From assembly GCA_014189435.1 (NCBI GenBank), contig CP050294.1, positions 310,001-374,000 on the forward strand: DNA of 64,000 bases, given 5' to 3'. Of the stretch, positions 39,234 through 62,314 are shown piece by piece. Both the position numbers and the translations under genes were made by a program. Under the pieces are notes generated by a model that did not search any database, was not told where the DNA came from, and worked only from the letters and a program-made list of their open reading frames with translations. Source of the stretch: Mesorhizobium loti (GTDB lineage: Bacteria > Pseudomonadota > Alphaproteobacteria > Rhizobiales > Rhizobiaceae). Within the stretch, counting starts at the first letter, position 1. Each line of letters opens with the position of its first letter.

Positions 39234-39690
39234 GCTGATCTCGCTCTCATCCTGCTTACTGTTCTACGCAGACCGGATCGATGACTATCGGGATGGTCGG
39301 CGTCCGCCCGCGCGGCTGGCACTCCGTCACGACTGAGTGGACCGTTGACGCTCACCTCTCATCGTATCGGTGGCGTGCATGCTTGCGGATCATCCGCAGC
39401 ACCAACCGTGCCAAAGGAATAAAACCTTCAATTACAACGTGGTGAGCCGCCCCATCTGTGTCCGATCTCCCGCATCGTCGTAAACCCGACAGAATTAAAT
39501 GGAAAACGACACCTGCGTAACGCCGCCATGCAAATCTGGAACAAATCGCGTGTGTCGCCGCGGCACGACAGCCGTCCCCGCCAGCTATCGCTGCATCAAG
39601 CCGCTGATAATTTTACAGTGCCCGCACTCCTCCTCGTGCGCCAACGGTCAGTCTGGTGTCGCGAATTGAGGCGCGCTAAAGCCGTCCGGC
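39234..39690. other. Promoter region of the S46 gene, partly duplicated at 26.2 kb
   Basis: Bases up to about 39500 match 26130-26398 in inverted orientation with moderate divergence (for example TTGAAGGTTTTATTCCTTTGG in both). No other gene is recognised to 39690. Confidence 0.6.
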
Positions 39691-40068
39691 TCAGCCGATC
39701 ATGGCGCTTCGGTTGCCGGGTTCGAGGTCGTGGCCTCTGCCGCTGCGCGATTCTAGCATTTGCGCCTTGGAGAGCTCTGCTTCAGCCTCGGCGAGAGATG
39801 GCTCGGCTGCGGTTCTCTGCCGCAGAAGGTCCGATTGCGAACTCTTGAGGTTGTCACGACGCAGGCGGGCGGCCTTGGCGAACGTCGGGTAAGCGAAATG
39901 ATTGATATCGGAGATGCCAGCCTTCGTTTCCTCGGCGTTGATCTGGAAGTCCAGTTCTCGCGCCATGCGTTCGAAATCGGCAATCATCATGTCTAGCTGC
40001 TGCAGCTGTCGCCGCTTCTCATTCACCTGAAATTGCTTAAGTCGGACCAGATTACCTCGTGGCTTCAT
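39691..40068 (-). CDS. fliJ: Flagellar export chaperone FliJ, possibly shortened at the C-terminus
   Basis: 125 residues. MKPRGNLVRLKQFQVNEKRR, then QLQQLDMMIADFERMARELD and GISDINHFAYPTFAKAARLR closely follow the alphaproteobacterial FliJ pattern: a coiled-coil protein of the flagellar type III export gate that contacts FliI and FlhA. The last ~20 residues (SGRGHDLEPGNRSAMIG) do not look like FliJ, so the end may be replaced. No other flagellar gene is adjacent, so it is a stranded or second copy and function is doubtful. Confidence 0.75.
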   Translation of the reverse strand: MKPRGNLVRLKQFQVNEKRRQLQQLDMMIADFERMARELDFQINAEETKAGISDINHFAYPTFAKAARLRRDNLKSSQSDLLRQRTAAEPSLAEAEAELSKAQMLESRSGRGHDLEPGNRSAMIG

Positions 40069-41037
40069 GACTCGGTACTCCCGTACACATTTCGTCCGAT
40101 CAAACCGCTCTCCTCCCAGCCCCTTAACGTTAGGCCTACAGCGACTCTCACGGTTTCCGCTGCGACAGGAAACATATTGTCCAAAATCCTTGGCCGATGG
40201 CTATGAGTTCAATGGCATCGACAAGCATGCGGGCGAGGGACTTAAGGGGCGGTAAAAAAGGTGAAATAGGGCGATGTCACGCTGTCTGCATATGAACCCG
40301 TTGAGACCTGGCGGCCGCTGATGTCAGCAGACCATGGCCACGGCTTTCCATTTCGCCATGGGCCGCGTCTCTCTGCAGCGCGATCAAACCGGCATAGGTG
40401 CCCACAAAATTCCGAAGCGGGGATTCGTTCTCGGGGACTTTGCGACAGCCGTTTGTGCGCTCTTCCAGGAGCTTGCGACAAAACCGGCATCAGTGCCTCA
40501 ATCGGTTTTGCACCAGTTCGAACTGTTCCCCTTCGCCATGTGACAGGGTTTCCCTGCCGCGGACTACTACGAGAACTCCGCCAACATGATGGACATCAGG
40601 GCCAACTCCCTTGCGATGCAGAACATCGTTGTCATTCCATCATGCCTTCCCTCGTTCATATGCTGGACGTCTTCGTATTGGTGAGGCTGCCGGTCGCAGT
40701 CTTTTCCCTTGCTTTCTGCAAGTCGATGCCGATGCCATGGTCTGGCTGCGTTCTCTCCATGGTCCCCAATAAGCGCCTTACGTATGCGCTATTGTTTGGA
40801 TGCGTGCCGACATACATTTCCAGCACCATCAACGGCATTCCGCCTGTTAAGCCGTGTAGGCGGAGGCGACGATTTAGCCCTCAGACACGGATGAACCGGT
40901 TCGTGTTCCTCAACCTTCCAATACTTCAGCCTCGGGAACCATCTCGGCGTAACGACTTCGCCTCAATCCCCTTTACCTGCGGGCTACGTCACCCTGCCAG
41001 TTGACAGCAGGTCACCGCCGCTTGGGCTCATGCCCCC
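40069..41037. other. About 1 kb without a recognised gene
   Basis: Several overlapping open frames exist on both strands, but none has a ribosome-binding site, balanced composition or a known motif. It separates fliJ from the relic next to the nucleoside cluster and could be eroded DNA. Confidence 0.4.
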
Positions 41038-41358
41038 TCACAGCAGGGGACAAGGCACTTCTTCAAATCCTCCTTTCTCTCTTGCATTCCAGTCATACGC
41101 TTCCCCCTGTTCGGAGCGAGGCGCACTGTAGGTCTCGTCCGCATGCCATTTGCCGGTCACGGCGCGCTTGCGCCGGTTGAAGTGTTCCATCAGCAGCGGC
41201 GCGAAATGAACGACCCAGCGATGGATCGTTGAATGATCGACGCTAATGCCACGCTCCGCCATCATTTCTCGAAGATCGCGTAGGCTCAGTCCGTAGGCCA
41301 GATACCAGCGATTGCAAAGCAAGATCACAGATTGGTCGAAATGGCGGCCTTTGAACAT
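41038..41358 (-). pseudogene. IS6-family transposase N-terminal fragment
   Basis: MFKGRHFDQSVILLCNRWYL, then AYGLSLRDLREMMAERGISV, HSTIHRWVVHFAPLLMEHFN and AVTGKWHADETY is an IS6/IS240-like transposase up to the first catalytic Asp. The frame then runs into unrelated sequence (SEQGEAYDWNAREK). It marks the left border of the biosynthetic cluster. Confidence 0.85.
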
Positions 41359-41611
41359 CTCAACTCTCCGGGGAACACCGGAGCCCAATGCCATGCGCCT
41401 CGTTACCAAAGACTTTGCAACACATCCACATCAGGGGCATTGAATGTCATGATTAGATACAGCGGTCGCGATAAATCGGCGCAATCTTACATTTAAGCGC
41501 AGTGCGACACGAGTGCTGCGACGCTGGTGGCCATCGCAAGTAGTTCCTCGCGTCTCGTCGGAAATGCGACGTATTCGTTCATCAGTTACTGGTCCAAATT
41601 TCCCTCCCTAT

Positions 41612-42388
41612 TCACACAGTTCGCCCTCTGGACGCTTCGCCCTGATGGCGGTGATCGATCATCGTGGCCCTCAGCCTTCGGATTGTTTCTCCGCCGAGTT
41701 CACGCTCGACACTGTCAATATGCCACTGCGTCTCAGGATGGGCGAGGAGAGCCGTCATTGTTCTCGCTTGGGTCTCAAGACGGATTGCGTATTGTTGGGG
41801 CGATAGGCCTCGCTTCTCCCAATGTGCCTTGAACGAGCCGAGATGAGCCCGAAGTTGTCGAGCCGAAAGCGCGTAATCTCGGGCGATGTCCGACGTTGAT
41901 ACGCCCACAAGGCGAAGCAGCATTGCTACCACCACGCCGGTCCTGTCTTTACCGGCCGTGCAGCAAACTATGGTCGTCTTCGCGGTCTGAGCGGCGTACG
42001 CGGCCGCTAGGTCTACGATGACGTTATCTGCAGAGGGCATTAGCCGCACATAGGATGAGAAATAATCCTGCCAAGTCGGGCGCACGACATCGAGGAGAAA
42101 GCTCGGGTCCGACAGAGGACGGTGCCAGAACTCCGCTCCCAGGCCTATCAACGCCTCGGGCATCCCTTCCCTGTCGATCTCCCGAGTCGTGCGCAGATCC
42201 AGGATTCGCAGTGGCCCATATTCGGCCATTAAATGCCGAGCGGTTGGCACATCCAAGTTGATCGGGGCCGCACTACGCAAAAGGCGCCTTGGGTTGACGA
42301 AACCGCCGTCCGCCACCCGTAGCCCACCGAGCCCACGCATATTTCGCGTGCCTTCCAGGCGGATCAATCGACTCGTCAATAGTGCCAT
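41612..42388 (-). CDS. Tyrosine-phosphatase-type phosphatase of the nucleoside cluster (NikL/PolJ-like role)
   Basis: 258 residues. The Y_phosphatase3 fold is shown by RNMRGLGGLRVADGGFVNPR, LRILDLRTTREIDREG and the P-loop C-C-T-A-G-K-D-R-T-G-V with catalytic Cys and Arg. Phosphatases of this type occur in nikkomycin and polyoxin clusters, where they remove phosphate from the octosyl-acid phosphate after the radical SAM step. It is the last gene of the leftward operon, 60 bases after the enolpyruvyl transferase. A role on a true protein phosphotyrosine cannot be excluded from sequence, but context favours a small-molecule phosphatase. All motif residues are present. Confidence 0.85.
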   Translation of the reverse strand: MALLTSRLIRLEGTRNMRGLGGLRVADGGFVNPRRLLRSAAPINLDVPTARHLMAEYGPLRILDLRTTREIDREGMPEALIGLGAEFWHRPLSDPSFLLDVVRPTWQDYFSSYVRLMPSADNVIVDLAAAYAAQTAKTTIVCCTAGKDRTGVVVAMLLRLVGVSTSDIARDYALSARQLRAHLGSFKAHWEKRGLSPQQYAIRLETQARTMTALLAHPETQWHIDSVERELGGETIRRLRATMIDHRHQGEASRGRTV

Positions 42389-42448
42389 TCTGAATAATCG
42401 TTGCCGCAGCGGCCCGACGATGCCGAAACACGATGCAGGAAGCGCGAC

Positions 42449-43779
42449 CTACGATGTAGCCCGCTGATCAATACTGGCCCCGAGACTCGTCAACTGCCCG
42501 GCAAGATCCGCATAGCCGCGCCCCAGGTGTTCGACACCTTGGATGATTGTTTCGCCATCGATACCGAGGGCGGCCAGCACAAGGGTAGCGGCGGCCCGCA
42601 GATCATTGCCTCGGACCGTTTGCCCTGGCCGGGCCGCCCGGCCAGGGGTGATATGTAGGACAGGTCCATCACTGTGCATTTCGGCTCCCAGAGCCGTGAG
42701 GCCGCTGGCGTAGTCGAAGCGGTTGACCCATACATGCTCTTCTATCTTGCCCCCCCTCTCTGTACCCGACAGGAGCAGCGCGAAGAATGGTTGACTGTCG
42801 CTGAATATTCCATGCGAAGAGACGCGAATGTCTATGCCGTTCATATGATCGGCCCGTAGGCTCAACCTCGACTGCTTCAAACGCTCGACGGTCAGGCCCA
42901 TGCGATCAAAGCAGTCAAGTTCGGCGGCCAGTCCTGCCCATGTTTTGTCAGCGATCCCGGTCAGCCGGATGTCTGCTTGAAGGTAGGCGGCGAGCGTGAA
43001 GAAGGTCACGATTTCGATCGCGTCGGACGACACCTCATATTGGAACGCCTGGAGGCAAGGCCGCCCCTCAACACGCAAAACGTCGTCTCGATCCTCTATG
43101 CTCACCCCTGCGGCGATCATTCCGCCAATCAGGTCAGCCACGTCCGCCTTGCGATAGGGGCTGTGGATTTCGGTCACTCCAGCCGCCGTTGCAGCACACA
43201 AGAGCGCGGCTTTGGTGGCGCCCGAGTAGAGGGGACCGGTCAATCCCCCGCCATTGGACAGTTCCTTGGCAAAGTCAGCCATGTTGATGGTGCAGCCGCA
43301 TAATTGCTTGCATGAGGCAGAGAGCATCCCGCCCTGGATTTCCGCAGTGGCGCCAAATCTTTGCAACACTTCCCGGATGTGCTCGAGGGGACGCTCTCCC
43401 CCGCTGACGCCTCCCCGATCCTGCATCCACCGAACGGCCCGGCGTGGACCTCCCCTAACTTGCCGAGCAGCCCTGGAACCATGTAGAGAGAACCATGCAC
43501 CCGGCGGGTCAGAGCACTTGGAAGCGTGCCGTTGGAAATTGTTGTCGGATCGACCAGCAATCGGCGACCTGCGCGATCGTGGCGAGCGGACGCACCTGCA
43601 TGCACTAACAGTTCCGCGATCACTCTGACATCTTCGACGTCAGGAACGTTCGCGAGTTCGAAGGGCCCGCTGGCCAACATCCCGGCCGCCACGAGAGGCA
43701 GCGCGGCATGCTTAAAGCCAGAAATCTGTACCTCCCCAGCGAGGGGCCGTCCGCCGTTCACCACCCATGAGGATGTCAT
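42449..43779 (-). pseudogene. MurA/EPSP-like enolpyruvyl transferase (MalO/NikO-like), one frame break
   Basis: About 440 residues across two frames. ATG 43779 overlaps the methyltransferase stop (ATGA). SGFKHAALPLVAAGMLASG matches the MurA SGAKNAALPI region: Lys kept, Asn replaced by His. GPFGGCRIG holds the catalytic Cys. The frame then shifts near 43410; adding one G restores GGGVSGGERPLEHI and the rest (FSDSQPFFALLLSG with the MurA Asp, VNRFDYASGLTALGAEM, NDLRAAATLVLAALGIDGE). In malayamycin and nikkomycin, MalO and NikO transfer enolpyruvate from PEP to pseudouridine or uridine 5'-phosphate. Whether the break is real decides whether the cluster works. Confidence 0.88.
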
Positions 43780-44408
43780 GATGCAGAGCCCGCTGTCATC
43801 AGCACGGCTCCCTTCTGGGTTTGATGCCTCTGGGTTCGGAACTGAGGAAATTCGGCTTGCCACCGGCGAACGATGGCCTCTTCGTCCGCCCGGTCCGCAT
43901 CGTCCAGAAGGAGACAGGGCGATGGGCCGAGCTGTTTGGCAAAAAGCGGAAGCATCGGGTACCGGGCCAGCGCGCCGGTCTTGCGCGGCGGACCATCGAC
44001 GACAAGAAAGTCATATGCGATGGCCGGAACATTGGAGATGTCGTACCAGTCCCACTGCTCGCCACCGATCACGTGCGTCTGTAGCGGAGCATCAATGACG
44101 GTGATGTTCTGGACGCCGTGCCGAACAGCCCATTCGCGGGTCAGCTGCGCATATTGGGGCAGGTGCTCCAGCGCATAGACATGGCCAGCCCAAAGCTGCA
44201 TGCAGTGTCCTAGCAAAACCGTAGAGATACCACTGCCGGCCTCCAGGACGGCGCGCGGACGCCGACTTGTGGCCTCCGATACCAGAAGATCCGCAAAATC
44301 GGCCCCGATCGTGAATTCGCCTAGAGGGGGCAGGCCATCCCTAAGGCGGAATGGACAAACCCCATCGGCTGCGCTTGCAAACGCGCCCTCGCCGTCGACC
44401 GAAGACAT
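43776..44408 (-). CDS. Class I SAM-dependent methyltransferase
   Basis: 210 residues. Motif I is VLEAGSGISTVLLGHCMQLW; the acidic ribose-binding residue follows in HVYALEHLPQYAQL; DFLVVDGPPRKTGALARYPM resembles motif IV of small-molecule (Methyltransf_24-like) enzymes. Its start overlaps the oxygenase stop by one base and its stop overlaps the enolpyruvyl transferase start by four, so it is embedded in the operon. Malayamycin carries an O-methyl group; this is the only methyltransferase in the cluster and is the natural candidate for it (inference). Confidence 0.85.
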   Translation of the reverse strand: MSSVDGEGAFASAADGVCPFRLRDGLPPLGEFTIGADFADLLVSEATSRRPRAVLEAGSGISTVLLGHCMQLWAGHVYALEHLPQYAQLTREWAVRHGVQNITVIDAPLQTHVIGGEQWDWYDISNVPAIAYDFLVVDGPPRKTGALARYPMLPLFAKQLGPSPCLLLDDADRADEEAIVRRWQAEFPQFRTQRHQTQKGAVLMTAGSAS

Positions 44409-45049
44409 TACAAAGCGCGGAACATGGCGGTCAGCACTTGTCGAAGGCGAGGTGCACCCTCACTCTCCTGCGTCCTGGTTACCATGTGCCAGGAATTATC
44501 GCTTCGCCGAAGTATAACCGACGAGTTCAGGACTGGCGGTATTTCGGCAACGACGTCCTTCTCTTGGTCTGATCCCAGGATACGAAGGCAGCCGCCCCAT
44601 TCGCGCTCCCAGCCCGGATTGAGATTGAAAACCTGGGTGACGACCTTGTCCGGCTTATCCGTATGCGGGCCGAGCCATCCCCCCGGCGGGTAGTGCCACA
44701 GGGACAGTTCGAGATTGAGACCGCTCAGGTCGATACCAATCACTTCGCTCATGGCGGTGCGATATTCGCTGGACCTCAAGGCCCGGAGGAAATCCCGCCA
44801 GGCCGGCGTATATTTGTCGTCGTCTTCAGCATTTAGAGCCTTGCTTTCGAGGCGGTAAGGTTTTCTATGTCCGGGGTCACCGCTGGGCCTTTCGCTGGCA
44901 CTGAACCCCGCTGCGGGGATGGTAGCGGCGAGACGCTCGGCAAAACCGGGCGAAACAAATTCATCGACGACCGCCCAAAAATACGGGTCGTTCCGCCATT
45001 GTGCCCCTCGCAGGGAGTGTACCAGCTCACTGAAACTAGCGCTCATCAT
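44408..45049 (-). CDS. 2-oxoglutarate/Fe(II)-dependent oxygenase B
   Basis: 213 residues counted from ATG 45049, which overlaps the upstream oxygenase stop; the longer frame to 45151 would overlap that gene. The prolyl-4-hydroxylase-like core has the iron ligands H-x-D in GGWLGPHTDKPDKVVTQVF and the distal His in NSWHMVTRTQ, with the 2-oxoglutarate Arg in RLRQVLTAMF. The substrate is unknown. In nikkomycin and polyoxin, two such oxygenases (NikI/NikM, PolD/PolK) oxidise and shorten the octosyl acid. This gene and its upstream neighbour are the matching pair here. Confidence 0.88.
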   Translation of the reverse strand: MMSASFSELVHSLRGAQWRNDPYFWAVVDEFVSPGFAERLAATIPAAGFSASERPSGDPGHRKPYRLESKALNAEDDDKYTPAWRDFLRALRSSEYRTAMSEVIGIDLSGLNLELSLWHYPPGGWLGPHTDKPDKVVTQVFNLNPGWEREWGGCLRILGSDQEKDVVAEIPPVLNSSVILRRSDNSWHMVTRTQESEGAPRLRQVLTAMFRAL

Positions 45050-45688
45050 TGACCTCCGAAAAATGCACCAAAACGCAACGCCGAGGCGCGTTGGACGCGC
45101 TTTCGAGCATAGACACTGCATGCCAAGACTGACTTGATGGCAGCAGGACAACTGACATGTTGGGACGGGGAGGAACGCTCCTCACCACATCGTCCATCTT
45201 GTCGGAGCCCAGGATCAGAAGATCCCCCCCCGACCAGTCGGTCTTGAGGGTGCTGCAGATAGACGATTTGGGTGAGGCGTTTGTCCGGACGGTCCAGATG
45301 CGGGCCAATCCAGCATCCTTCCGAATAAATCACGAACCGCACTTCGGCCAACGTCCCCCCCAAGGGACTTGCCGGTCAACTTCTCCAGGCCGGCTATATT
45401 GTGGTCGCCGACCAAGGCACTGACGGCCTCCTGCCAAAGTGGAGTCAGGCCATAATATTCCGGTTTCCGCTCCCCATTCTTCATCACCATCAAGTTGTAT
45501 GTCTTGTAGCTTTTGGCGGAGGGCCCGCCGGCCTTCTCCGTCAGGACGAAACCATCGCAAGGAAAGCTATTAAATAACTGATCATAGGTCGCATATTCAA
45601 AGTAATCTACAATACATCCCCAATGAAATTTTTCACTATGGAACGAACAATTTTCAAATCGTAACGAAATATCCGCATAACTATTCAT
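45046..45688 (-). pseudogene. 2-oxoglutarate/Fe(II)-dependent oxygenase A, two frame breaks in G runs
   Basis: Three frames together make one ~213-residue homologue of oxygenase B. They are MNSYADISLRFENCSFHSEK to KLTGKSLGG; then AEVRFVIYSEGCWIGPHLDR (iron-binding H-x-D) to DRLVGG; then GDLLILGSDKMDDVVRSVPP and QSWHAVSMLESASN (distal His) with RRCVLVHFSE. The breaks fall exactly in runs of seven G (45355-45361) and eight G (45224-45231); one G fewer in each restores the frame. This could be sequencing error, slipped-strand phase variation or decay. Confidence 0.85.
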
Positions 45689-45723
45689 GACTCACACCAG
45701 AGATCTACGGATGCCAATTCGAT

Positions 45724-47007
45724 TCATGACTTTGTGGCGCGATCAGCATGGTTCCCGAACAGCAGTTTGTAGAGCAGATCTTTCTGCTCACCCGAGTAAA
45801 TATCCTCGACGAACATCTGGCGATTGAACCCACCAACCTCTTCCAGCGTCATATCCGCCTCGATCCTGTCGTATGGCGTGTAGACGGTCGGTCGCACGCG
45901 GCTGCCCTGTGCAAGGACCTCCGAAATAGTCTGATCGATCCCCTGGATGCTGTCGCCCGGCAACCCGACGATGACAAAGCAGTTCAACTCAACCCCAGAG
46001 GCGCGGCCCGCGCTGGCAAGCCGCCGAAATGCGTCTAGGCTATCTTGCTTGATCTTCGGCAAACTTCCCGCAGCGCCAACGTCCAGCGTCTCGAGGCCTA
46101 TGCTCACCCGCACACAGCCGGCGCCCGCCATGGTGGCCAGAAGCTCGGGATCGAGATGGAACAACGTGGTGACGCATTTCCAGGGAAACCTCAGGCCGCG
46201 CCGCTCCTTTTCCGCACAGAATGCCCGAACCCACGCCTTCTTCAGTGTGAAGGTCGGGGCGTAGAACGAAACATATTCAAACGGCCCCTCGTCAAAGGAT
46301 TGTTGGATATAGTCGAGGGTAGGCACGACCCCTGCGCGTCGTTCGCGTAATCCCTGCATGGTGGGAACGTCGCAATAAGCGCAGCCGACTGAGCACCCCC
46401 GCGCCAGGGGCACAACAAGCTCACGGCGTTCGGGAATGCCGCAGAATTTGTTCGAGTCCTGCTGGTACAGCCGGTCATACGCTCCGTAGGGAATATCCCG
46501 GACGTCGGGGAAAGCCCAATGCTCGGCATGGAGAAAAATCCCGGGGGCAGGTTTCCCGTAGCCGTCTTCCTGCCGGAGCGAGACGCCCGGTGGTATCGTC
46601 TTTCCGTCCGCAATCCAGTCGATGAAGCCGGCCACCGACGCCTCGTAGTCGCCTGCCGATGCAATGCCGTGGAATCCGAAGCGCTCAAAGAGGCCCGGAA
46701 CCTGATTGGAAAGCCGGCCGAAGGTCATCACCTTGGCTGAGGGAGAAAATTCGCGCACGTAGCGCAGCATTCGCGGAAAGGTGTCGACGCCGTCAAAGTC
46801 GTTCAGCAGTGCTATGACGTCGAACTTCTGCACCAGGAGTTCAGCGATATCGCGCCAGGTTAAGTTCAGAGCTGCACAGTCCAGAGCAACTATTTCGTCC
46901 GAATGCCTCTGGCTTCTGAGGTAAGTAGAGACCTGGAAGATCGGAATATGATGCCCTGCATTGAAGTAACTAGGGATATATGGTGGAATAATGCATAGAA
47001 CGCGCAC
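45724..47007 (-). CDS. Radical SAM enzyme (NikJ/PolH-like octosyl-acid synthase role)
   Basis: 427 residues from GTG 47007 (AGGCGGA upstream). N-terminal ~150 residues resemble a cobalamin-binding-like domain (MRVLCIIPPYIPSYFNAGHH, then KFDVIALLNDFDGVDTFPRM). The radical SAM cluster motif CxxxCxxC is in ARGCSVGCAYCDVPTM, followed by the barrel (WKCVTTLFHLDPELLATMAG, then RVSIGLETLDVGA and NCFVIVGLPGDS). NikJ/PolH use a 5'-deoxyadenosyl radical to close the enolpyruvyl nucleotide into the bicyclic octosyl-acid phosphate. Direct pairing with an enolpyruvyl transferase and a phosphatase makes the same role very likely here. Confidence 0.9.
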   Translation of the reverse strand: MRVLCIIPPYIPSYFNAGHHIPIFQVSTYLRSQRHSDEIVALDCAALNLTWRDIAELLVQKFDVIALLNDFDGVDTFPRMLRYVREFSPSAKVMTFGRLSNQVPGLFERFGFHGIASAGDYEASVAGFIDWIADGKTIPPGVSLRQEDGYGKPAPGIFLHAEHWAFPDVRDIPYGAYDRLYQQDSNKFCGIPERRELVVPLARGCSVGCAYCDVPTMQGLRERRAGVVPTLDYIQQSFDEGPFEYVSFYAPTFTLKKAWVRAFCAEKERRGLRFPWKCVTTLFHLDPELLATMAGAGCVRVSIGLETLDVGAAGSLPKIKQDSLDAFRRLASAGRASGVELNCFVIVGLPGDSIQGIDQTISEVLAQGSRVRPTVYTPYDRIEADMTLEEVGGFNRQMFVEDIYSGEQKDLLYKLLFGNHADRATKS

Positions 47008-47020
47008 GATATCTATCCGC

Positions 47021-48088
47021 CTAATATCTGCAAAATGTCACGAACTGATTTATAGCCATCGTGGCATAGCAGCCACTTGGAAGAAACATCTCTACGGTTA
47101 CTTTGTTGCGCCCTTGATGAAACTCGTCGAGACCGTGTTCGACGACCCTGATCCGCGCCTGTATCAACCCCGGACGAACCTCGGGATCGACTTCTGGAAA
47201 GCCCGGCGCACACGAAAAACGTCGGAGCGGATGAGTCAGAGCTCGCTGGCGGATGCGCTCCAGCAGTCGAGGCTCTACAGTGAGGAGGCACTTCAGGGGT
47301 GGACGCGTCAGTTCCTGGACGCCAGCCTCACCGGCAATACTGTCTGCCAGCTGGGTGTTCCATTGATAGGACGAATAAGCCGCGTAATATAAACGCACAA
47401 TTCGCGGGTCCAATTCGCAAAAGAATTGTTCGGCGCTGCCCGACCAGGATTGCGCCAACAGCGCCTCCTCCGCCCGTGACTGCCTCAACAGCGCCAGCGC
47501 TTCGTCGTAGGCGCCCGCATGCAGCCGGTCGCCAATCAGGTGAGTGGTCTTCGGACCGCCGGGAACGCCGAAGCGTTGCGTGTCGTAATAGTTGATGAAG
47601 ACAAGTTCGCTCGATCTTCGCGACGCCAGCCTTGCGACTAGCTTCTCATCCAAATCCCGGATTGCGATCCTGAACGCGTTGCCGATCAGGTGGCCGACGC
47701 GGATCGCTCCGCCCTCGCGGCCCAGGCTCACTACTTGAATAAATTCGGACTTCCCTTCGTACGCAGCATTGAAGCTCTGCACGCTCTCGGCGGGCAGGTC
47801 AGCACCGACGCTAATGTGCTGCTCCGTGACGGCGTCTTCGTCCTTCAGCCCGGCATAGGCGACTACCTTGGCGTCCACTCCAGTCGCCTCGGCGAGCCGT
47901 CGAACGGCCTGAAACGTCGTGAAGCCCCGCTTACGCAGTAAAAAATACGGATGGACCTCGGAGGGACGCGCAGCCAAAGTTGGCATCAACACCTCTTGGA
48001 CCAAAAAGTCCTCTGGCACAAATTTTAATCGATGATTGTACCCATCCCCAGGCAAGTTCAACAACTCCGGAGCTTTATTGGCGATCAC
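47021..48088 (-). CDS. TruD-like pseudouridine synthase (MalD/PumJ-like role)
   Basis: 355 residues from GTG 48088. TruD signatures are intact: VVAYAGLKDEDAVTEQHISV carries the catalytic Asp of the G-x-K-D-x-x-A-V-T-x-Q motif, with GNAFRIAIRDLDEKL, NYYDTQRFGVPGGPK and the C-terminal VTVEMFLPSGCYATMAINQF. In bacteria TruD normally makes pseudouridine 13 in tRNA. TruD-like MalD supplies pseudouridine 5'-phosphate for malayamycin, and a TruD homologue also occurs in the pseudouridimycin cluster. First gene of the seven-gene leftward operon, so it is the likely entry enzyme to a C-nucleoside. Whether it acts on RNA or on free nucleotide is not visible. Confidence 0.92.
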   Translation of the reverse strand: MIANKAPELLNLPGDGYNHRLKFVPEDFLVQEVLMPTLAARPSEVHPYFLLRKRGFTTFQAVRRLAEATGVDAKVVAYAGLKDEDAVTEQHISVGADLPAESVQSFNAAYEGKSEFIQVVSLGREGGAIRVGHLIGNAFRIAIRDLDEKLVARLASRRSSELVFINYYDTQRFGVPGGPKTTHLIGDRLHAGAYDEALALLRQSRAEEALLAQSWSGSAEQFFCELDPRIVRLYYAAYSSYQWNTQLADSIAGEAGVQELTRPPLKCLLTVEPRLLERIRQRALTHPLRRFSCAPGFPEVDPEVRPGLIQARIRVVEHGLDEFHQGRNKVTVEMFLPSGCYATMAINQFVTFCRY

Positions 48089-48107
48089 TTGGTGACAGTT
48101 AGGTATG

Positions 48108-48141
48108 CGTTTGGCGTGTAGTGGATGTCAACCACTTACAC
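48108..48141 (-). promoter_or_regulatory. Operator-like dyad over the -35 box of the leftward operon
   Basis: AGTGG (48120-48124)-N7-CCACT (48132-48136) is flanked by GTGTA and TACAC, extending the dyad. The minus strand of its centre reads TTGACA (48131-48126), a perfect -35 box, with CATACC about 18 bases on as a weak -10. A protein bound here would block the truD-like operon and could also affect the rightward one. The regulator is not in the cluster. Confidence 0.55.
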
Positions 48142-48184
48142 ATTGATATCTTCGAATATATTTTCAGATATTATTTGTTTTCGC

Positions 48185-48214
48185 TTGACCTTGATTTATG
48201 TAGAGGTAGATAAT
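48185..48214 (+). promoter_or_regulatory. Predicted sigma-70-type promoter of the rightward operon
   Basis: TTGACC (48185-48190), an 18-base spacer and GATAAT (48209-48214) form a good match. Transcription would start near 48221, leaving a very short leader before the aminotransferase. Confidence 0.5.
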
Positions 48215-48235
48215 TCGGCATGTGAAACTCAAGCT

Positions 48236-49375
48236 ATGACTCATAGGATGGAATTTCCCCGCCAATCTCAAACAGCCGAATGCGATATTTGGCGGTTTCC
48301 GTTGCCGGAAGTCGGTGATCTCGCACGCCACAACCGCCTTCCCGCCAATCACGGGATCAATCTGCGAAGCTGCGAACTGCACCATCCCCGGATGACAGAG
48401 CTTTTGCGGGAGGTCGCGCCCGACACCGCGCATACCCAGTTCTACCCCTTTGCTAGCTTGGCCATAGGAGGGATCGGCCGGCGGCTTGGCGTTCCCTCGG
48501 AGCGGCTGACGCTGGCCGCAGGGTCCGATGCTCTGATCGCTGCGATTGTCGACGCTTTTGGGTCGGCCACCGGGCGCATGATTCTGCAGGTGCCCAATTA
48601 CTTCGGCTGGGCGCACTATGCCGCGCTGCGAAAGCTTGACGTAACCCACGCGTCTATCAGGGTGCCGGATGCGATGGCGATGGGGTTTCAGGCGCTTCTG
48701 GATACATTACGGAGTAAGCCACCGTCGCTGGTGGTCATTTCCAACCCCAATAGCCCCACCGGTCACCTAATGTCCGGCAGTGAACTGATTGAGCTGGCCG
48801 AATCGTGCGGGCGACATCACCACCTGCTGGTGGTAGACGAATGCTTCGCAGCCTTCGCGGAAACGGACCACGTCGAGCTCCTCGGATCTTACGACCACGT
48901 CTTCCTGGTACGGTCATTCTCAAAGAGTTTGGGTCTGGCAGGCGCGCGGATCGCCGTCGGCATGTCGCCACCCCGTCTGGCTCGCCTTCTCGGTGCCTAC
49001 AGAATGGACGGCGCTGTTTCAGGAGCATCCCTTCATATGCTTGAGGCCCTGCTCGGTCGGCCGGAGGAGCTCAAATCGATCTGGAAGGACATCATTCTGG
49101 CGCGCGAGAAATTCGGGGCAGCATTGGCGCTCCAGCGGCCGGGTTGGCGGGTGCTCCCGTCGGCCGGCAACTATGTGAATGTGGCCGTCCGCGGCTACGA
49201 GCCGGCCGAGGTCGTCAAGCATCTCGACACGCGTGGGGTCTATATCCGCGACACTAGCCGGGAGGTTGGTCTGGCTGGATGCGTCCGCTTCGGGATAGCG
49301 CATTGGCCGCTAATGCAGGGCGTGCTGGACGCCATCGCGGCTGTTCCGCCGCCTGCTGCTCAAACAAGTGACTGA
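48236..49375 (+). CDS. PLP-dependent aminotransferase, histidinol-phosphate-aminotransferase-like
   Basis: About 379 residues from ATG 48236; ATG 48251 is an alternative, and the upstream in-frame ATG at 48125 lies within the operator and promoter and is unlikely. Fold-type-I class I/II motifs: VVISNPNSPTGHLMSGSELI, the Asp that binds the PLP nitrogen in LLVVDECFAAFAE, the Schiff-base Lys in VRSFSKSLGLAGARIAVGM and the C-terminal Arg region RFGIAHWPL. NikK, the aminotransferase of nikkomycin that aminates the trimmed octosyl core, is of the same broad family. The amine made here would then be carbamoylated. First gene of the rightward operon. Confidence 0.9.
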   Translation: MTHRMEFPRQSQTAECDIWRFPLPEVGDLARHNRLPANHGINLRSCELHHPRMTELLREVAPDTAHTQFYPFASLAIGGIGRRLGVPSERLTLAAGSDALIAAIVDAFGSATGRMILQVPNYFGWAHYAALRKLDVTHASIRVPDAMAMGFQALLDTLRSKPPSLVVISNPNSPTGHLMSGSELIELAESCGRHHHLLVVDECFAAFAETDHVELLGSYDHVFLVRSFSKSLGLAGARIAVGMSPPRLARLLGAYRMDGAVSGASLHMLEALLGRPEELKSIWKDIILAREKFGAALALQRPGWRVLPSAGNYVNVAVRGYEPAEVVKHLDTRGVYIRDTSREVGLAGCVRFGIAHWPLMQGVLDAIAAVPPPAAQTSD

Positions 49376-49394
49376 AGGTTCCGTCGGTGCGTCA

Positions 49395-50306
49395 ATGACA
49401 GACAGAGTTTTGTTCGCGAACGGCTGTTCTATGTGTTACGGAACCGACCTGTTCGACGATCCGAATACCGGGTTCTGCTTTGACAATGAGGCACGGTGGC
49501 GGGCCGCCTGGCCGGGTCAACTGGGGCGGCTGCTTGGCTATACGAGCGTCGTCAATGACGGATTTCCCGGCAGCTCCAACGACCGCATCCTGCGCTCGAC
49601 CATTCGCTGGCTGGTGGAAGATGTCCCTGCGCTGAAAGCGGCCGGCGCGGAATTGCTGGTCGTGATCGGCTGGTCATCGCCGATGCGCCGGGAGTTCCAT
49701 ATTTCCGGCGAGTGGCGCCAGCTCATTCCATACCATGACTATACCGATGCGCCTGCGGCGATGATCAACCGAGCCTATCGTGAAATCGCGTGGAGCGATG
49801 AGGAATCGGCCATACGGTTCGCCACGCAGGTCCTGACGCTCAAATGGGCGCTCGAGCGTGCGAGCATCCCCTACCTGTTCTTCAATGCGCTTGAGAGTCT
49901 GGCCGACATTGACGAGCATTCGGGCGGCAGCCTGCAGCCCTATATGTCCCAGATACTTGATCGGCATTTTTTTGGCTCCGGGCAAAATGGGGAGCCCGAG
50001 CGCATACAAGCCGCCGCGACGGTAAAGGCCTCGGGGGGTCATCCTGACGGTGAGGGCCACATAGCATGGGCGGCTGCTCTTGCCGAGTATCTCCAGACGC
50101 AGGGGGTCGCCCAGAAAAGCGTCGGGTGCACGGGGATCGCCTATTCCGGAACGACCAAAGCCAGAATCCTCGATCGGAAGGTCGGCCTGCCGAAGCGGCC
50201 GGGCGCGGCCGCCGCAAGAAAGGCGCCGCCCGAGCCAGAGCGGCCGAAGGGCCTGGTTGAGCGTATCTTGGCGAGCCGGCGGCGGGATCCATTCATTTAT
50301 GAGTAG
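49395..50306 (+). CDS. SGNH-fold protein of unknown reaction
   Basis: About 303 residues from ATG 49395; GTG 49368, overlapping the aminotransferase stop, is an alternative. SGNH/GDSL blocks are visible: FANGCSMCYG with the nucleophile-position Ser, VNDGFPGSSNDRIL (block II/III Gly and Asn), VVIGWSSPMRREFH, and SGGHPDGEGHIAWAAAL with the D-x-x-H dyad. Such folds act as esterases or acyltransferases. The last ~45 residues are basic and Pro-rich. It overlaps the carbamoyltransferase by eight bases. No SGNH step is needed for the known malayamycin skeleton, so it hints at an acyl group or a hydrolytic step not seen in the Streptomyces compound. Confidence 0.75.
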   Translation: MTDRVLFANGCSMCYGTDLFDDPNTGFCFDNEARWRAAWPGQLGRLLGYTSVVNDGFPGSSNDRILRSTIRWLVEDVPALKAAGAELLVVIGWSSPMRREFHISGEWRQLIPYHDYTDAPAAMINRAYREIAWSDEESAIRFATQVLTLKWALERASIPYLFFNALESLADIDEHSGGSLQPYMSQILDRHFFGSGQNGEPERIQAAATVKASGGHPDGEGHIAWAAALAEYLQTQGVAQKSVGCTGIAYSGTTKARILDRKVGLPKRPGAAAARKAPPEPERPKGLVERILASRRRDPFIYE

Positions 50307-51786
50307 GCCAACCGCTCCTGACATTGTCGGCGCGAGCTGTCTCAGTCATGATGCGGCGCTCGCGGTTGTCCGCGACGACGAGATTGTCTACGCGGCCCAT
50401 TCGGAGCGTTTCAGCCGTCAAAAGATGGACCGGTATCTTTGCGATGGGCTTCTGGACGATGTGGAAGCCCATGTCCGCATCCCCTTCGAGATCGCCTATT
50501 ATGAGAACCAGAACCTTAAGCGCAGCCGTGAACTGTTCGCCGGGCAATATCGCCGGCTGCTGACGACCCCCGGCGCTCGCAGCTATCTGGCGCGGTTCCC
50601 CTTGTTGCGAGGACGGCCTGTCGCGTCTCATGGTCATCATTTCTCCCATGCGTGCGGCGGCTATTTCACCTCGACTTTCCGGGATGCCAGCATCGTCGTC
50701 ATAGATGGTATAGGCGAATGGGACACTCTTACGGCATGGCGTGCATCCGATCGCACGATCGAACGCGTGCTGACTGTTCGTTATCCGCATAGCATCGGCC
50801 TGTTCTATTCCGGCTTTACCGACCGTTGCGGCTTCCGGCCGAACGAGGAAGAATACATCATGATGGGCCTGGCGGCGTTCGGAGACGATCGATACGTTGA
50901 CCACATTTTCGATGATTTCATCGCCGATCCTCGGCCAGACCGCTTGCGGTTCCGCCGGAACCTCCACCGGGGGATACGCGACTGGCGGACCGACCTCACC
51001 GATATCGAGAATATTGCAGCGAGTTGCCAAAGCGTGACCGAGCGGCTGCTGCGGGAAGTGTTCCAATGGGTGAGAACGGAGCTACCGAGCAAGAATCTGG
51101 TCTATTCCGGCGGCGTTGCGCTCAATTGCGTCTTCAACGGAATGTTGGCGCGAGAAGGCTGGTTCGACAACATATGGATCATGCCGGAACCGGGGGATGC
51201 CGGCAGCAGCCTCGGCGCCGCGCTCGCACAGCGCGGAGAATGGGTGCAGTGGCGCGGACCCTATCTCGGCCACGACATCGGCCGGGGACTCAATATCGAC
51301 GGAGCGCTTCGCAGCCTGGTCAAGGGTAAGGTTATCGGCGTTGCGCATGGTCGCGCCGAGTTCGGGCCGAGGGCATTGGGCAATCGAAGCCTGCTTTCGG
51401 ACCCGCGAGGTCCCGGAGCTAAGGAAAAGGTCAATCGGATCAAAAAACGGGAGCTTTTCAGGCCTTTTGCCCCCATCATTTTGGAGGAACATGCGCCAGA
51501 GTACTTTGAAATGCCTCTGCAGCGTGTCCCCTATATGCAGTTCGTCGCCAAGTGCCGAAAGCCGGAAGCGATTCCAGCAGTTTGCCATGTGGATGGAACC
51601 AGCCGCGTCCAGACCCTAAATGCAGCGCAGAACGCCTCAGTGCATCAACTTCTAAACGCATTCTACCAACAGACACGCTGCCCGTTGCTGCTCAACACCT
51701 CCCTCAACATCAAGGGGGAGCCTCTGGTGAACTCCGCCGAGGATGCCCGACGCTTCTCGGAATTGCATGGCATAGAGATTTTCTAG
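50299..51786 (+). CDS. Carbamoyltransferase (NodU/CmcH family)
   Basis: 495 residues from ATG 50299, overlapping the SGNH stop; the long frame from 50080 only reads through that gene. The Kae1-like domain has DIVGASCLSHDAALAVVRDD and the metal-binding HHFSHACGGYFTSTF, then FRPNEEEYIMMGLAAFGDD and NLVYSGGVALNCVFNG. The C-terminal domain starts VIGVAHGRAEFGPRALGNRS, the family signature, and ends LLLNTSLNIKGEPLVNS. These enzymes move a carbamoyl group from carbamoyl phosphate via carbamoyl-AMP. Although rhizobia use NodU on Nod factor, no nod genes are here. Carbamoylating the new amine would make the ureido group of malayamycin (inference). Confidence 0.92.
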   Translation: MSRPTAPDIVGASCLSHDAALAVVRDDEIVYAAHSERFSRQKMDRYLCDGLLDDVEAHVRIPFEIAYYENQNLKRSRELFAGQYRRLLTTPGARSYLARFPLLRGRPVASHGHHFSHACGGYFTSTFRDASIVVIDGIGEWDTLTAWRASDRTIERVLTVRYPHSIGLFYSGFTDRCGFRPNEEEYIMMGLAAFGDDRYVDHIFDDFIADPRPDRLRFRRNLHRGIRDWRTDLTDIENIAASCQSVTERLLREVFQWVRTELPSKNLVYSGGVALNCVFNGMLAREGWFDNIWIMPEPGDAGSSLGAALAQRGEWVQWRGPYLGHDIGRGLNIDGALRSLVKGKVIGVAHGRAEFGPRALGNRSLLSDPRGPGAKEKVNRIKKRELFRPFAPIILEEHAPEYFEMPLQRVPYMQFVAKCRKPEAIPAVCHVDGTSRVQTLNAAQNASVHQLLNAFYQQTRCPLLLNTSLNIKGEPLVNSAEDARRFSELHGIEIF

Positions 51787-51795
51787 AGATCGCTT

Positions 51796-52350
51796 ATGTT
51801 GTCCAAATCCCGTGCCAGCAGGATCAGCGTCTTCGGCTCTCCGGGTAGCGGAAAATCGACCTTTGGACGGCGGCTCGCTCATAGCCTCGATCTGCCCTTA
51901 CTTGCCCTCGATGATCTCTACTGGGGGCCGAATTGGGAACGCCCGAACAAGCAAGATTGGCTCCACACCCTAAGAATGCAGCTTGCTGCCGAGGCCTTCG
52001 TCGTCGAAGGCGGATATGTCGAAACGATCGACATGCGCATCGAAAGAGCGGAGCTGGTCTATTTGGTTGAAGCGCCGGCCTGGCTTTGTGAATGGCGCTT
52101 TGTCGCTAGGGTCATGCGCATCGCCGGCGGTGACATGAGCCTTTTGCCGAAACGGGTTCCGCTAGATTCGCGCCCCACTCCCACGGCGAGGGGCGATTTC
52201 ACCCGCATGCTGGCCAAAATAGCCAAATACCGCCAAGAGGTTAGACCGTTGATCTTGAGCGCCGCGAAACGGCACGGTGTCCCGCTTGTGGTCGTCGACA
52301 GCGGCATCAGCGCCCAATCCGGCCGGCTCGCTGCCCCAAGCCCATTCTAA
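51796..52350 (+). CDS. P-loop kinase, adenylate-kinase/FlaR-like
   Basis: 184 residues. Walker A is ISVFGSPGSGKSTFGRRLAH, followed by LLALDDLYWGPNWERPNKQD, typical of small nucleoside/nucleotide kinases of the 'topology modulation protein' type, and a lid-like region (SLLPKRVPLDSRPTP). It starts nine bases after the carbamoyltransferase and is the last gene of the operon. Published work on peptidyl nucleosides describes cryptic phosphorylation, in which a kinase adds a phosphate that later oxygenases require and a phosphatase finally removes. This kinase could play that part or inactivate the product for self-protection; the sequence does not decide. Confidence 0.8.
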   Translation: MLSKSRASRISVFGSPGSGKSTFGRRLAHSLDLPLLALDDLYWGPNWERPNKQDWLHTLRMQLAAEAFVVEGGYVETIDMRIERAELVYLVEAPAWLCEWRFVARVMRIAGGDMSLLPKRVPLDSRPTPTARGDFTRMLAKIAKYRQEVRPLILSAAKRHGVPLVVVDSGISAQSGRLAAPSPF

Positions 52351-52743
52351 TATGACATGACAATCGGCGAGCGCGCAGATGGACAGTAGACAGCGGTTTG
52401 TCGGAGCTGCGGCGCGACTACGACCATGCGGCCTCCTTCCTCACCTCAGTAACGCCGTTCGGTGAGGGTCTGCGACGAGACGCGGCACAGATTCGACTAA
52501 ATGTTCATCGCTAATCACCTCCTCAATGGGGGCGGCCAAGGAGCTGTTCAAATGGGGCCCTGTGAGCAGCGTTCGTACGTCGATGCGGGCCAGCGGTTTC
52601 GGCGCTTCTTCCGGTGACGCCGCTGCAAGATCGGTCATCGAGGCAGACTACAACGAAGCCCGACCGCGCGCAGAACGGGACGACACGAGTTCCAGGCCCT
52701 AACCCGCAAGGCCGTGACGCGGGTCGACCACCGTCAAGTGAGA
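52351..52743. other. No gene recognised
   Basis: A leftward frame of 65 residues (52441-52638) starts with MTDLAAASPEEAPKPLARID but has no motif. The rest appears eroded. It is the right border of the nucleoside cluster. Confidence 0.35.
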
Positions 52744-52890
52744 CACCACCCCGGTCGAGAATGGCGGCGGCCTCTGATGTTTGGTGAACCGACATTTGCC
52801 GATGCCATCCCGGACCGTCTGGTTCACAATGCTTATCGCCTCGAACTCGACGGGCCTTCAATGCGCCGCTCGAGTGACTCCACCGAAGAA
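52744..52890 (+). pseudogene. IS21-family IstB C-terminal relic
   Basis: The plus strand reads FGEPTFADAIPDRLVHNAYR, then LELDGPSMRRS, the end of IstB helper ATPases ('PTFADAILDRIVHNAYRieL.G.SmR'). All ATPase motifs are gone. Confidence 0.75.
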
Positions 52891-53034
52891 GTTGACGAAG
52901 GCCACCGCGCCTGGCATCAAAACCATGCCTACGCGGCAACGATCCTAAGTGACCGGATACCCCGGAATGGTTCACCGGATGTTGTCGGAACAGCCGACCG
53001 GATGCGGCGGAATGCGCAATAGGGGGGTAGAAAA

Positions 53035-53590
53035 GTTGATAGAAATTGTAATGCCCCGAGAGGAATGGCCTAATGAATTTGCAATCTTGAAGCAGTCCGT
53101 TATGCGCGCGGCACCTTCTGGTGCCTACATCCATCATATTGGTTCGACGGCCGTGCGAGGTCTTCCTGCCAAGGATGTAATCGATATTCAGCTTACGGTA
53201 GGTGACCTGTCTCAAGTGGACGATACTGCCTTTGCGCGAGAGGGATTTAATCGCGTACTAGGTAAAGTTGACCATAGCCCTCCAGGGCTGGACCTTCCAG
53301 AAAAGGATTTGCTTAAGCGCTTTTTTCAAAGCACTGACCGGAAAGCAAACTTGCATATTCGGGAAAAAGGTCGCTTTAATCAGCTCTATTCGCTCCTTTG
53401 CCGGGATTACCTGCGCACGCATTCATTAGCGGCTAGTGCATATGCACGCATAAAGCAGAGTCTCGCTAAATTACACCCCGATAACGCGGAGGCATATTAC
53501 GAAATCAAAGACCCCGTGTTTGATATCATTATGGAGGCGGCGAACGAATGGGCGAAGAGCACGGGTTGGTCGGAGCCGCCACATGATTAG
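53035..53590 (+). CDS. GrpB-family (UPF0157) protein
   Basis: About 184 residues from TTG 53035, which has GGGGGG at proper spacing (ATG 53051 is the alternative; the frame to 52949 runs into the relic). IEIVMPREEWPNEFAILKQS, then AYIHHIGSTAVRGLPAKDVI with D-I-Q-L, and KANLHIREKGRFNQLYSLLC are the GrpB pattern, a nucleotidyltransferase-like fold of poorly known function (some act in CoA or stress metabolism). The base composition is noticeably more AT-rich than its neighbours, pointing to separate transfer. A decayed relative lies at 14.1-14.5 kb. Confidence 0.85.
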
Positions 53591-53929
53591 CCTTCGTAAG
53601 CCTTAAACCGGTACCCGGCTCTTCTGCTCATGGTGCCTTCAAGCGTTCCCCTCCGGCAGCGTCCAGAGCGCATCGATTGAGGGGGCGCTTTCTGGTCGAC
53701 GCCATTGACAGCGTGGCCCCAGCGCACGCCAATCAATTTTCATCTGTTGAAAAAGACGTGCACTCACGTGCGAACTCTATCGTGAAGAACTCACCGTTCA
53801 TTTCGGCGTCGCGCGCCATAGCGCCATAGCCTCCCAATTGACATAGTAGCGCAGAGAGTCGGGTATCGTGACGCTCTCGGCGGCCAGCTCTTCCATCTAA
53901 TTGGCAAGGCTGGCGAACTGGCCGTTAAA
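53591..53929. other. No gene recognised
   Basis: A stretch between grpB and an IS6 relic; no coding or structural signal was seen. Confidence 0.4.
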
Positions 53930-54165
53930 ACGGCTGAATTGGGACACGGGGAGGATTGGTTGCGTTCTGGTCAGGCAGCGAGAAAGGCGAACTGTTCGGC
54001 CAAGGGACGGATTGGGATTGAAGGCGTTCCAGCGCCTTTCTGGAGAAGCACTTGGCCGACGGCAGGTCGCGCTACGCGCTGAAATAGAATTCGACGCTGT
54101 CGATGGCGCGGTAGAGATACCGTCACGGCCCGCCTGGGCGCGTCGTCATGCCCGACTTGAACAGT
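53930..54165 (-). pseudogene. IS6-family transposase C-terminal relic
   Basis: On the minus strand it reads RYLYRAIDSVEFYFSA, then a stop, then RDLPSAKCFSRKALER, matching the IS6 segment LYRAIDTVGDTVEFWFSEQR. A stop codon and the missing third catalytic residue show decay. Confidence 0.65.
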
Positions 54166-54314
54166 TGGAGGTGAACGGATGGCGAACGCTGTCCGTTAAG
54201 CTATTGAATTCACTCGCCTTGAGTTTTCGGCGCGAAAATGTGTGGTAACAACAGTTGATCTGCTCGCCGTATGTTGTATGGATTTTATGGCATTTATTCG
54301 CTAACAACGCTGGC

Positions 54315-55943: not shown

Positions 55944-56039
55944 GATCATCCCCAAAATGTAGTGGTAACACGCGCCGGCGCGCGCCTAACGTGCTGATAT
56001 AATAACATATTCTTACAGGCGGTGTTTAAGTGGGGTCAT
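55944..56039 (+). mobile_element. IS1634 right terminal region
   Basis: From the transposase stop to GTGGGGTCAT this sequence recurs after the second copy (63101-63195) and then diverges, which fixes the element's right end. It contains CGCGCCGGCGCGCGCC. Confidence 0.7.
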
Positions 56040-56301
56040 CGTTTTCGACGAGGTTGGAGTCGATGTCGACGCAGCCGTCGTCCAGGAACAGCCGGAAACC
56101 GGCTTGGCGTTTCAGCATATAAGCCATGGCCTCGCCGAGGTCGGACTTGCGCGAGACGCGCGCGGTCTGAGTTGTCAGCCAGGTGAAGAACTCGTCCACC
56201 AGCGGGCCGGACAGGTTCTGGCGGACAGCCCGGCGATGATCGGGGTCACAACCTCGGATGATGCTGTCCTCGATCTTGTAGAGGGCGGCGATGCGCAACA
56301 A
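56040..56301 (-). pseudogene. tnpC: IS66 TnpC C-terminal fragment
   Basis: LRIAALYKIEDSIIRGCDPD, then SDLGEAMAYMLKRQAGFRLF and LDDGCVDIDSNLVEN match the end of IS66 TnpC including its Glu region. The IS1634 right end cuts it. It is from a different IS66 type than the one at 11 kb. Confidence 0.8.
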
Positions 56302-56319
56302 CGCCTCGTCGTTTGTAGG

Positions 56320-56618: not shown

Positions 56619-56750
56619 CGGCGTACTAGCCCGTCTTATGCACGACGTTGCGTCTGAGAGGTTGGCGGATGTAGCCTAAGCGATTGATTTAGCGTAGGAT
56701 TCGGTTGTCTAAGCCAACCCTGCCACCGCCTCTCGCGAGCCACACCCGCC

Positions 56751-62296: not shown

Positions 62297-62314
62297 CTAT
62301 CCGCGCACCAACGC

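Follow-up and report, generated by a model that had tools for sequence, protein, structure and literature searches.

The 64,000-nucleotide stretch of Mesorhizobium loti DNA analysed here, called the window below (G000:C2:310001-374000), belongs to a genome of 8.33 Mb in three contigs, its own contig being probably about 453 kb long as judged from the identical TruD protein P0121, and holds, at positions 41,612-52,350, eleven adjacent genes in two divergent runs. These genes form a real biosynthetic cluster of the malayamycin kind, which pairs a TruD-family pseudouridine synthase with the octosyl acid route, in an unusual host and in a doubtful working state. Probably the cluster would make a malayamycin-type bicyclic C-nucleoside from uridine 5'-monophosphate (UMP), with two of its eleven frames interrupted in the assembly. 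The minus-strand run encodes, in order, TruD, a radical S-adenosylmethionine (SAM) enzyme, 2-oxoglutarate (2OG) oxygenases 1 and 2, a methyltransferase-like protein, a NikO-type enolpyruvyl transferase and a phosphatase; the plus-strand run encodes an aminotransferase, a DUF6071 protein, a carbamoyltransferase and a kinase. The window proteins were compared with four related loci, namely L002 (Actinobacteria metagenome-assembled genome clean4382), L020 (genome G793), L021 (G560) and L022 (G549). The features are listed below with their Pfam matches, script-located motifs and open reading frames (ORFs).

41612..42388, minus strand: Y_phosphatase3-family phosphatase, CX5R type (PF13350, 7.3e-33; CTAGKDR; homologue in 4/4 related loci)
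42449..43863, minus strand: NikO-type enolpyruvyl transferase, frame interrupted (ORFs 43240-43863 and 42449-43426; EPSP_synthase/MurA models)
43776..44408, minus strand: class I methyltransferase-like protein (Methyltransf_24, 1e-4, under the curated cut-off)
44408..45151, minus strand: second 2OG/Fe(II) oxygenase, open frame (PF13640, 8.9e-10; HTD and a later His)
about 45040..45688, minus strand: first 2OG oxygenase, frame interrupted (tblastn with related 2OG proteins)
45724..47007, minus strand: radical SAM enzyme (PF04055, 5.1e-17; CxxxCxxC)
47021..48088, minus strand: TruD-family pseudouridine synthase (PF01142, 8.9e-43)
48089..48235, no strand: divergent intergenic region (from the sequence; the upper limit assumes an aminotransferase start at 48236)
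48125..49375, plus strand: HisC-like aminotransferase, dependent on pyridoxal phosphate (PF00155, 2.4e-32; SFSKS; likely start 48236)
49368..50306, plus strand: DUF6071 protein, SGNH/GDSL-hydrolase-like (PF19547, 3.7e-30)
50293..51786, plus strand: carbamoyltransferase (PF16861, 1.8e-55; PF02543, 2.2e-45)
51796..52350, plus strand: small P-loop kinase, predicted nucleoside kinase (P-loop GSPGSGKS; homologue in 4/4 related loci)

An initial annotation of this DNA had proposed eleven adjacent genes in two divergent runs, and all were found in place. Pfam families and motifs bear out its naming of the TruD protein, the radical SAM enzyme with CxxxCxxC, the CTAGKDR phosphatase, the aminotransferase, the carbamoyltransferase and the kinase. 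Both of the 2OG oxygenases that it named are present as well, but the first needs three frames. The enolpyruvyl transferase, which it had called MurA-like, belongs to the expected family, but the gene is split by a frame change and is NikO-type rather than MurA.

This last distinction was one half of the comparison that the initial annotation had named as able to refute it, and it came out on the side of NikO: the C-terminal piece of the window gene has NikO as its best solved relative (4fqd; 172.6 bits, 1.2e-49), ahead of any MurA by 80 bits (best 92.4 bits, 3.4e-25). The unbroken L002 orthologue scores 353.5 bits with NikO versus 164.2 with the best MurA, a margin of 189 bits. Contig C1 of the same genome carries two MurA-type genes that share 31% and 28% identity with the NikO-type C-terminal piece. 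In an eight-row tree, the four related cluster enzymes, the NikO of strain K84 and the window piece split from two MurAs with 100/100 support, the K84 row being long and unsure in its placement. A script also located a GGC motif in the N-terminal piece. Collectively these comparisons argue that the window enzyme is of the NikO/MalO type and not a MurA, in a gene that is itself frame-broken.

The TruD protein likewise appears to be of a non-housekeeping type, as judged from its distribution and its tree. Pfam TruD was found in two of 146 genus genomes, exactly the two that carry the cluster; as a control for this survey, seven of 14 named genomes matched, E. coli among them. The best profile match spans residues 15-201 of the window protein, and a script located the motif YAGLKDEDAVTE; the loop KD is conserved, and we take its Asp to be catalytic. 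In a 19-row tree, 16 window-like sequences stand apart from three taken as housekeeping with 100/100 support, a neighbourhood of NikO and radical SAM genes having been seen for the window, L002, L020 and L022 only; L022 and Gloeothece form long branches, and their pairing is possibly false. At least 15 of the best 120 TruD relatives match a listed radical SAM relative by source and by length of the longest contig, as counted by eye with two length matches from differing sources excluded. A lone TruD gene in a genome whose kin have none is suggested as a possible marker of C-nucleoside pathways.

Several of the window-like TruD proteins occur elsewhere. One lies at L030:11977-13035 on plasmid Cy782202 of Gloeothece verrucosa PCC 7822 (30% identity over 95%), beside genes for an ABC transporter, a glycosyltransferase, a sulfotransferase and a histidine phosphatase and with no annotated NikO; L030 may possibly represent a different pseudouridine pathway. 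Relatives of the window-like type are also found in Actinomyces sp. Lu 9419 (P0160) and Hoeflea sp. TYP-13 (P0239). The Hoeflea protein hints that the order may contain another such cluster, Hoeflea being a genus of the same order as the host.

The radical SAM enzyme carries the motif CSVGCAYC at residues 205-212 (located by script) and is 48.6-49.4% identical to the enzymes of the four related loci. Among 7577 candidates, 510 relatives were found at E <= 0.001, and the best 120 of these include, besides many sequences from metagenomes, proteins of Streptomyces, Micromonospora, Xenorhabdus, Bacillus, Priestia, Burkholderia and Sorangium, which take the family well beyond Streptomyces. None of the relatives listed (the best 120 of 510 and the best 120 of 485) bears the name NikJ, PolH or MalJ. 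From its motif and cluster context, the enzyme is predicted to close the second ring of octosyl acid. The gene is rare around its host. Full-length copies occur in two of 146 genus genomes (63 have any match, the remaining 61 being partial at E 1e-14 or weaker), in one of 397 genomes of an order sample, the window's own (G017 lying outside that result), and in four of 398 of a phylum sample including the own genome. One of 20 matching plasmid records is close, that of strain 583, and the other 19 fall under 60% identity. A search of viral contigs gave 36 pattern matches and no relative, genome contigs gave 30 pattern matches and one relative, L002, and a survey of the phylum of genome G886 found one genome of 396, G886 itself.

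The plasmid match extends well beyond this gene. Positions 36,977-56,630 of the window match p_3, a plasmid of Mesorhizobium huakuii strain 583 (from an Oxytropis kamtschatica root nodule in Kamchatka), at 99.87% identity, and in G017, a genome of the same genus, the radical SAM gene has the coordinates that it has in the strain 583 p_3 record. The cluster sits between insertion sequences and was probably acquired by horizontal transfer.

The four related loci show that the cluster is more than a chance neighbourhood, because each of them groups most of these families, at about 23-56% protein identity. L021 and L022 are close kin (79% identity between their radical SAM enzymes), and the four loci therefore amount to about three independent cases. 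The radical SAM enzyme, NikO, aminotransferase, phosphatase, a 2OG oxygenase and the kinase each occur in 4/4 loci and TruD in 3/4, the L021 contig beginning at its phosphatase gene. The carbamoyltransferase and DUF6071 occur in the same 2/4 loci, L002 and L021; a DUF6071 match in L020 at E 0.008 overlaps the NikO gene and was taken as chance. On one strand of L020 the order is TruD, radical SAM, 2OG, 2OG, NikO, which is that of the window minus the methyltransferase. Absences in L020 mean little because its contig is only 10.5 kb. L002 shares TruD, NikO, the radical SAM enzyme, aminotransferase, carbamoyltransferase, phosphatase, DUF6071, a 2OG oxygenase and the kinase with the window, but has in addition a nonribosomal peptide synthetase (NRPS), a carrier-domain protein, a PAP2 phosphatase, an MFS-like protein and a second carbamoyltransferase, and lacks a methyltransferase homologue. 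Across the five loci, variable tailoring can thus be told from a constant core (NikO, radical SAM, phosphatase, aminotransferase, 2OG and kinase, with TruD where the contig reaches).

Three of the comparison clusters have features of their own. At L002:4384-9296 lie an NRPS with adenylation, peptidyl carrier protein and thioesterase domains (A-PCP-TE) and a carrier-domain protein with weak hexapeptide repeats, and the L002 product is perhaps an acylated or peptidyl bicyclic C-nucleoside. L020 is Xenorhabdus-like, its TruD being nearly identical in the tree to Xenorhabdus szentirmaii P0135, and includes an MFS protein and, next to TruD, a 395-residue protein with an arginine deiminase family match under the cut-off. 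A NikO-annotated gene also occurs on plasmid pAtK84c of Rhizobium rhizogenes K84 (L024:13584-21745), where its companions are asnB and genes for a glycosyltransferase-like protein, a Cof-type hydrolase, an ATP-binding protein and a multidrug efflux pump; TruD and radical SAM annotations are absent from the 31 kb seen. L024 is perhaps another rhizobial nucleoside cluster, with a possible link to agrocin 434.

P0114, a 705-residue metagenome protein, is a natural fusion of a kinase and a radical SAM enzyme, whose kinase domain (residues 11-124) is 46% identical to the window kinase and whose radical SAM domain (residues 249-673) is 51% identical to the window enzyme. Because of this fusion and the co-occurrence in 4/4 loci, we assign the kinase to the pathway, where it would probably add a temporary phosphate. 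No solved kinase matched it better than E 0.0097. In the excerpts on which we draw for all published pathways here, cryptic phosphorylation and dephosphorylation are stated for nikkomycin, polyoxin and malayamycin biosynthesis (PMC10127198), and 2'-phosphorylation by PolQ2 is mentioned (PMC8724604). The five-locus comparison makes it testable if the radical SAM step depends on the kinase, and the natural fusion points toward such a dependence.

The best-matching known system is malayamycin. As the excerpts of PMC8724604 describe it, TruD activity leads to pseudouridine, MalO acts almost exclusively on pseudouridine 5'-phosphate, and the radical SAM enzyme MalJ is the proposed catalyst of C-C bond formation; MalL is the phosphatase, MalM and MalI the 2OG oxygenases, MalK the aminotransferase, MalD the carbamoyltransferase and MalF the O-methyltransferase. 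The initial annotation had given the name MalD to the TruD-like enzyme, and this is corrected here. Each assigned step of the mal cluster (Streptomyces malaysiensis / S. chromofuscus) has a window counterpart when matched by gene family, the methyltransferase and the atom that would be carbamoylated being the weakest links. But mal has 20 predicted ORFs in Streptomyces (PMC8724604), whereas the cluster here has 11 genes in an alphaproteobacterium, two of them broken, with a kinase and an SGNH protein that fall outside the excerpted assignments. The nikkomycin and polyoxin route (NikO/PolA, PolH, PolJ) runs, like the window set, through enolpyruvyl transfer, radical SAM closure and dephosphorylation to 2OG oxygenases and an aminotransferase, and in vitro PolH converts 3'-enolpyruvyl-UMP to octosyl acid phosphate, which PolJ dephosphorylates (PMC5365060). 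Those products are peptidyl nucleosides built on uridine itself, whereas the window has TruD and a carbamoyltransferase and no peptide ligase was recognised. Pseudouridimycin (pum/sap) resembles the window in its TruD-type PumJ, its aminotransferase and its adenylate-kinase-like PumH (PMC8724604, PMC10127198); the pum pathway, as excerpted, is without NikO, radical SAM and 2OG genes, whereas in the cluster no flavin oxidase, glutamine ligase or guanidinoacetate genes were recognised. We also tried pseudouridimycin membership as a candidate and rejected it, since no flavin oxidase (PumI/SapB), ligase or guanidinoacetate genes were recognised among the 11 genes. The cited papers report this chemistry from Streptomyces, to which the window adds a Mesorhizobium version on a replicon that matches the 583 plasmid. 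The initial annotation knew of no such cluster in rhizobia, and none is described in the titles and abstract openings of the open-licence literature among the matches listed.

From gene family and neighbourhood we infer the following scheme. The TruD enzyme would turn a uridine unit into pseudouridine 5'-phosphate, and the NikO-type enzyme would transfer enolpyruvate from phosphoenolpyruvate onto the 3'-oxygen. The radical SAM enzyme would then bond C5' to the enolpyruvyl carbon and close the second ring, giving octosyl acid phosphate. The small kinase would probably add a temporary phosphate and the CX5R phosphatase would take phosphate off. The two 2OG oxygenases would oxidise the new ring and the aminotransferase would introduce an amine, after which the carbamoyltransferase and perhaps the methyltransferase would decorate the product, with ureido and O-methyl groups if it is like malayamycin. 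The SGNH protein has no step in the proposed scheme.

The tailoring genes fit this scheme to differing degrees. The phosphatase, 2OG oxygenase and aminotransferase families are all present, one 2OG gene being broken. The phosphatase has its CTAGKDR at residue 143 (by script) and is predicted to carry out a MalL/PolJ-like dephosphorylation. The second 2OG oxygenase is 48% identical to an L020 cluster gene. For the aminotransferase, a start near 48236 is likelier than 48125, relatives aligning from residue 54-61; it has the script-located SFSKS, its best solved relatives are histidinol-phosphate aminotransferases, and a MalK/NikK role is predicted. The carbamoyltransferase, 56% identical to that of L002 and 50% to that of L021, has decarbamoylnovobiocin carbamoyltransferase, GdmN and TobZ among its solved relatives and is predicted to carbamoylate the product in the role of MalD. 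The methyltransferase-like protein is a possible O-methyltransferase in the role of MalF. For the SGNH protein of the initial annotation, the DUF6071 assignment and the GDSL-lipase fold matches hold up, but the model behind the fold matches is of low confidence (three sequences, mean predicted local distance difference test score 54.6). Foldseek placed GDSL-like lipases and the thioesterase TesA on top (probability 1.00, E 9.9e-5 to about 1e-3), and an NGCS motif is invariant in the three sequences. This may be read, with low confidence, as fold-level support for an SGNH enzyme, which could be a hydrolase or an acyl transferase. Within the stretches seen, DUF6071 occurs only in those relatives that have the carbamoyltransferase (L002 and L021), a pairing that makes its role testable.

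Several observations weigh against the malayamycin-type assignment. The sole solved radical SAM relative found is of the AprD4 type (apramycin oxidoreductase 4; 4.8e-14). TobZ, one of the solved carbamoyltransferase relatives, is named an O-carbamoyltransferase, and the ureido group is uncertain for this reason; the other solved relatives presumably also act on oxygen. The methyltransferase of the initial annotation does find Methyltransf_24, but at 23.6 bits under a cut-off of 26.3; NCBIfam returned nothing at E <= 0.001. Its homologue is found in 0/4 related loci. No exporter or regulator was recognised beside the cluster in the part of the neighbouring ORFs that was scanned; in strain 583 a GntR regulator lies about 5 kb past the kinase. 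Two of the 11 genes, those for the NikO-type enzyme and the first 2OG oxygenase, have broken frames. Finally, the pseudouridimycin oxidase SapB used plain pseudouridine and was inactive with 2'- or 3'-phosphates (PMC10127198), which speaks against a 2'-phosphate function common to such kinases.

The alternative that survives best, which we regard as evenly balanced, keeps the same chemistry and changes the end product, for example to an octosyl C-nucleoside that is O-carbamoylated or acylated, or to one with an ezomycin-like core. The SGNH protein and the kinase fall outside the malayamycin assignments in the excerpts of PMC8724604, an O-carbamoyltransferase stands among the solved relatives of the carbamoyltransferase, and the NRPS, carrier-domain protein and second carbamoyltransferase of L002 show that tailoring varies. 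On the other side, the rest of the gene set coincides with the malayamycin assignments, and neither a ligase nor a glycosyltransferase was recognised in the cluster. The initial claim of a malayamycin-like C-nucleoside stands at the level of the pathway, through the NikO relation, the TruD tree and the step-by-step gene set; ureido and O-methyl groups on the product and orthology of the radical SAM enzyme to NikJ, PolH or MalJ are predictions, and a working pathway is doubtful in a strain with two broken genes.

Only slightly less probable, a little short of even, is that the cluster is a dead relic that arrived on a plasmid, is now decaying and makes no compound in this lineage. Activity is doubtful, and the cluster may be silent or in decay, since in the assembly both the NikO-type gene and the first 2OG gene have broken frames. 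In the window the NikO-type gene has one frame change and the first 2OG gene two (three frames are needed, as against two in L003 by tblastn); in strain 583 each has one, the NikO break lying elsewhere and one 2OG break being common to both assemblies. A full-length NikO frame is found in neither assembly, and in 583 the DUF6071 frame is also interrupted or shortened. The common 2OG break argues for at least some real decay. Insertion sequences flank the cluster on both sides, an IS5-annotated copy (by 583) at 35,862-36,977 and an IS1634-family transposase at 54,255-55,943. Against the relic, 9/11 frames are open, and the differences between the assemblies follow the pattern of long-read assembly error: over 19.66 kb there are 16 substitutions, 6 of which fall within the IS1634 gene, together with 8 length differences; 7/8 of the latter are single-base, and 6/7 of those lie at runs of at least five equal bases. 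An S46 peptidase gene outside the cluster likewise differs in frame between the assemblies. Long-read assembly error would appear to fit the frame breaks as well as real decay does.

That the genes serve a nikkomycin/polyoxin-like N-nucleoside pathway, with TruD an unrelated neighbour, is improbable. NikO, radical SAM, phosphatase, 2OG, aminotransferase and kinase genes are found in that route too, but TruD is next to the radical SAM gene both in the window and in L020 and belongs to the cluster in L002 and L022, it is absent from 144/146 genus genomes, and the cluster has no recognised peptide ligase. Nikkomycin and polyoxin clusters carry peptidyl side-chain genes and build a uridine N-nucleoside core without TruD. 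We rejected membership in this group, there being no recognised peptide ligase among the 11 genes and a TruD present. Far less likely still, and rejected as a candidate, is an accidental gathering of unrelated metabolic genes with a spare MurA and a TruD that acts on tRNA: MurA models and the truD annotation do name two genes so, but the NikO-over-MurA scores, the MurAs on contig C1, the TruD distribution and tree and the co-occurrence in four loci speak against it.

Returning to the malayamycin-type pathway, a bolder version of it seems to us unlikely as a whole, though worth stating. The plasmid would hold a pathway complete in kind, in which the radical SAM cyclase has an extra kinase as its obligatory partner and the carbamoyltransferase is paired with an SGNH enzyme resembling a transferase. 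The product would be an undescribed bicyclic C-nucleoside through which a root-nodule bacterium affects fungi or other microbes near the roots of its legume.

The surroundings of the cluster have some features of their own. The S46 peptidase gene (window 37074-39233) is a single ORF here and two annotated pieces in strain 583. A GrpB-family gene (52949-53590) lies directly downstream of the kinase and contains a single-base length difference between the two assemblies. The stretch annotated as IS5 in strain 583 has three near-identical copies in the window, at 6952-8065, 35862-36977 and 61184-62297 (98.8-99.3%).

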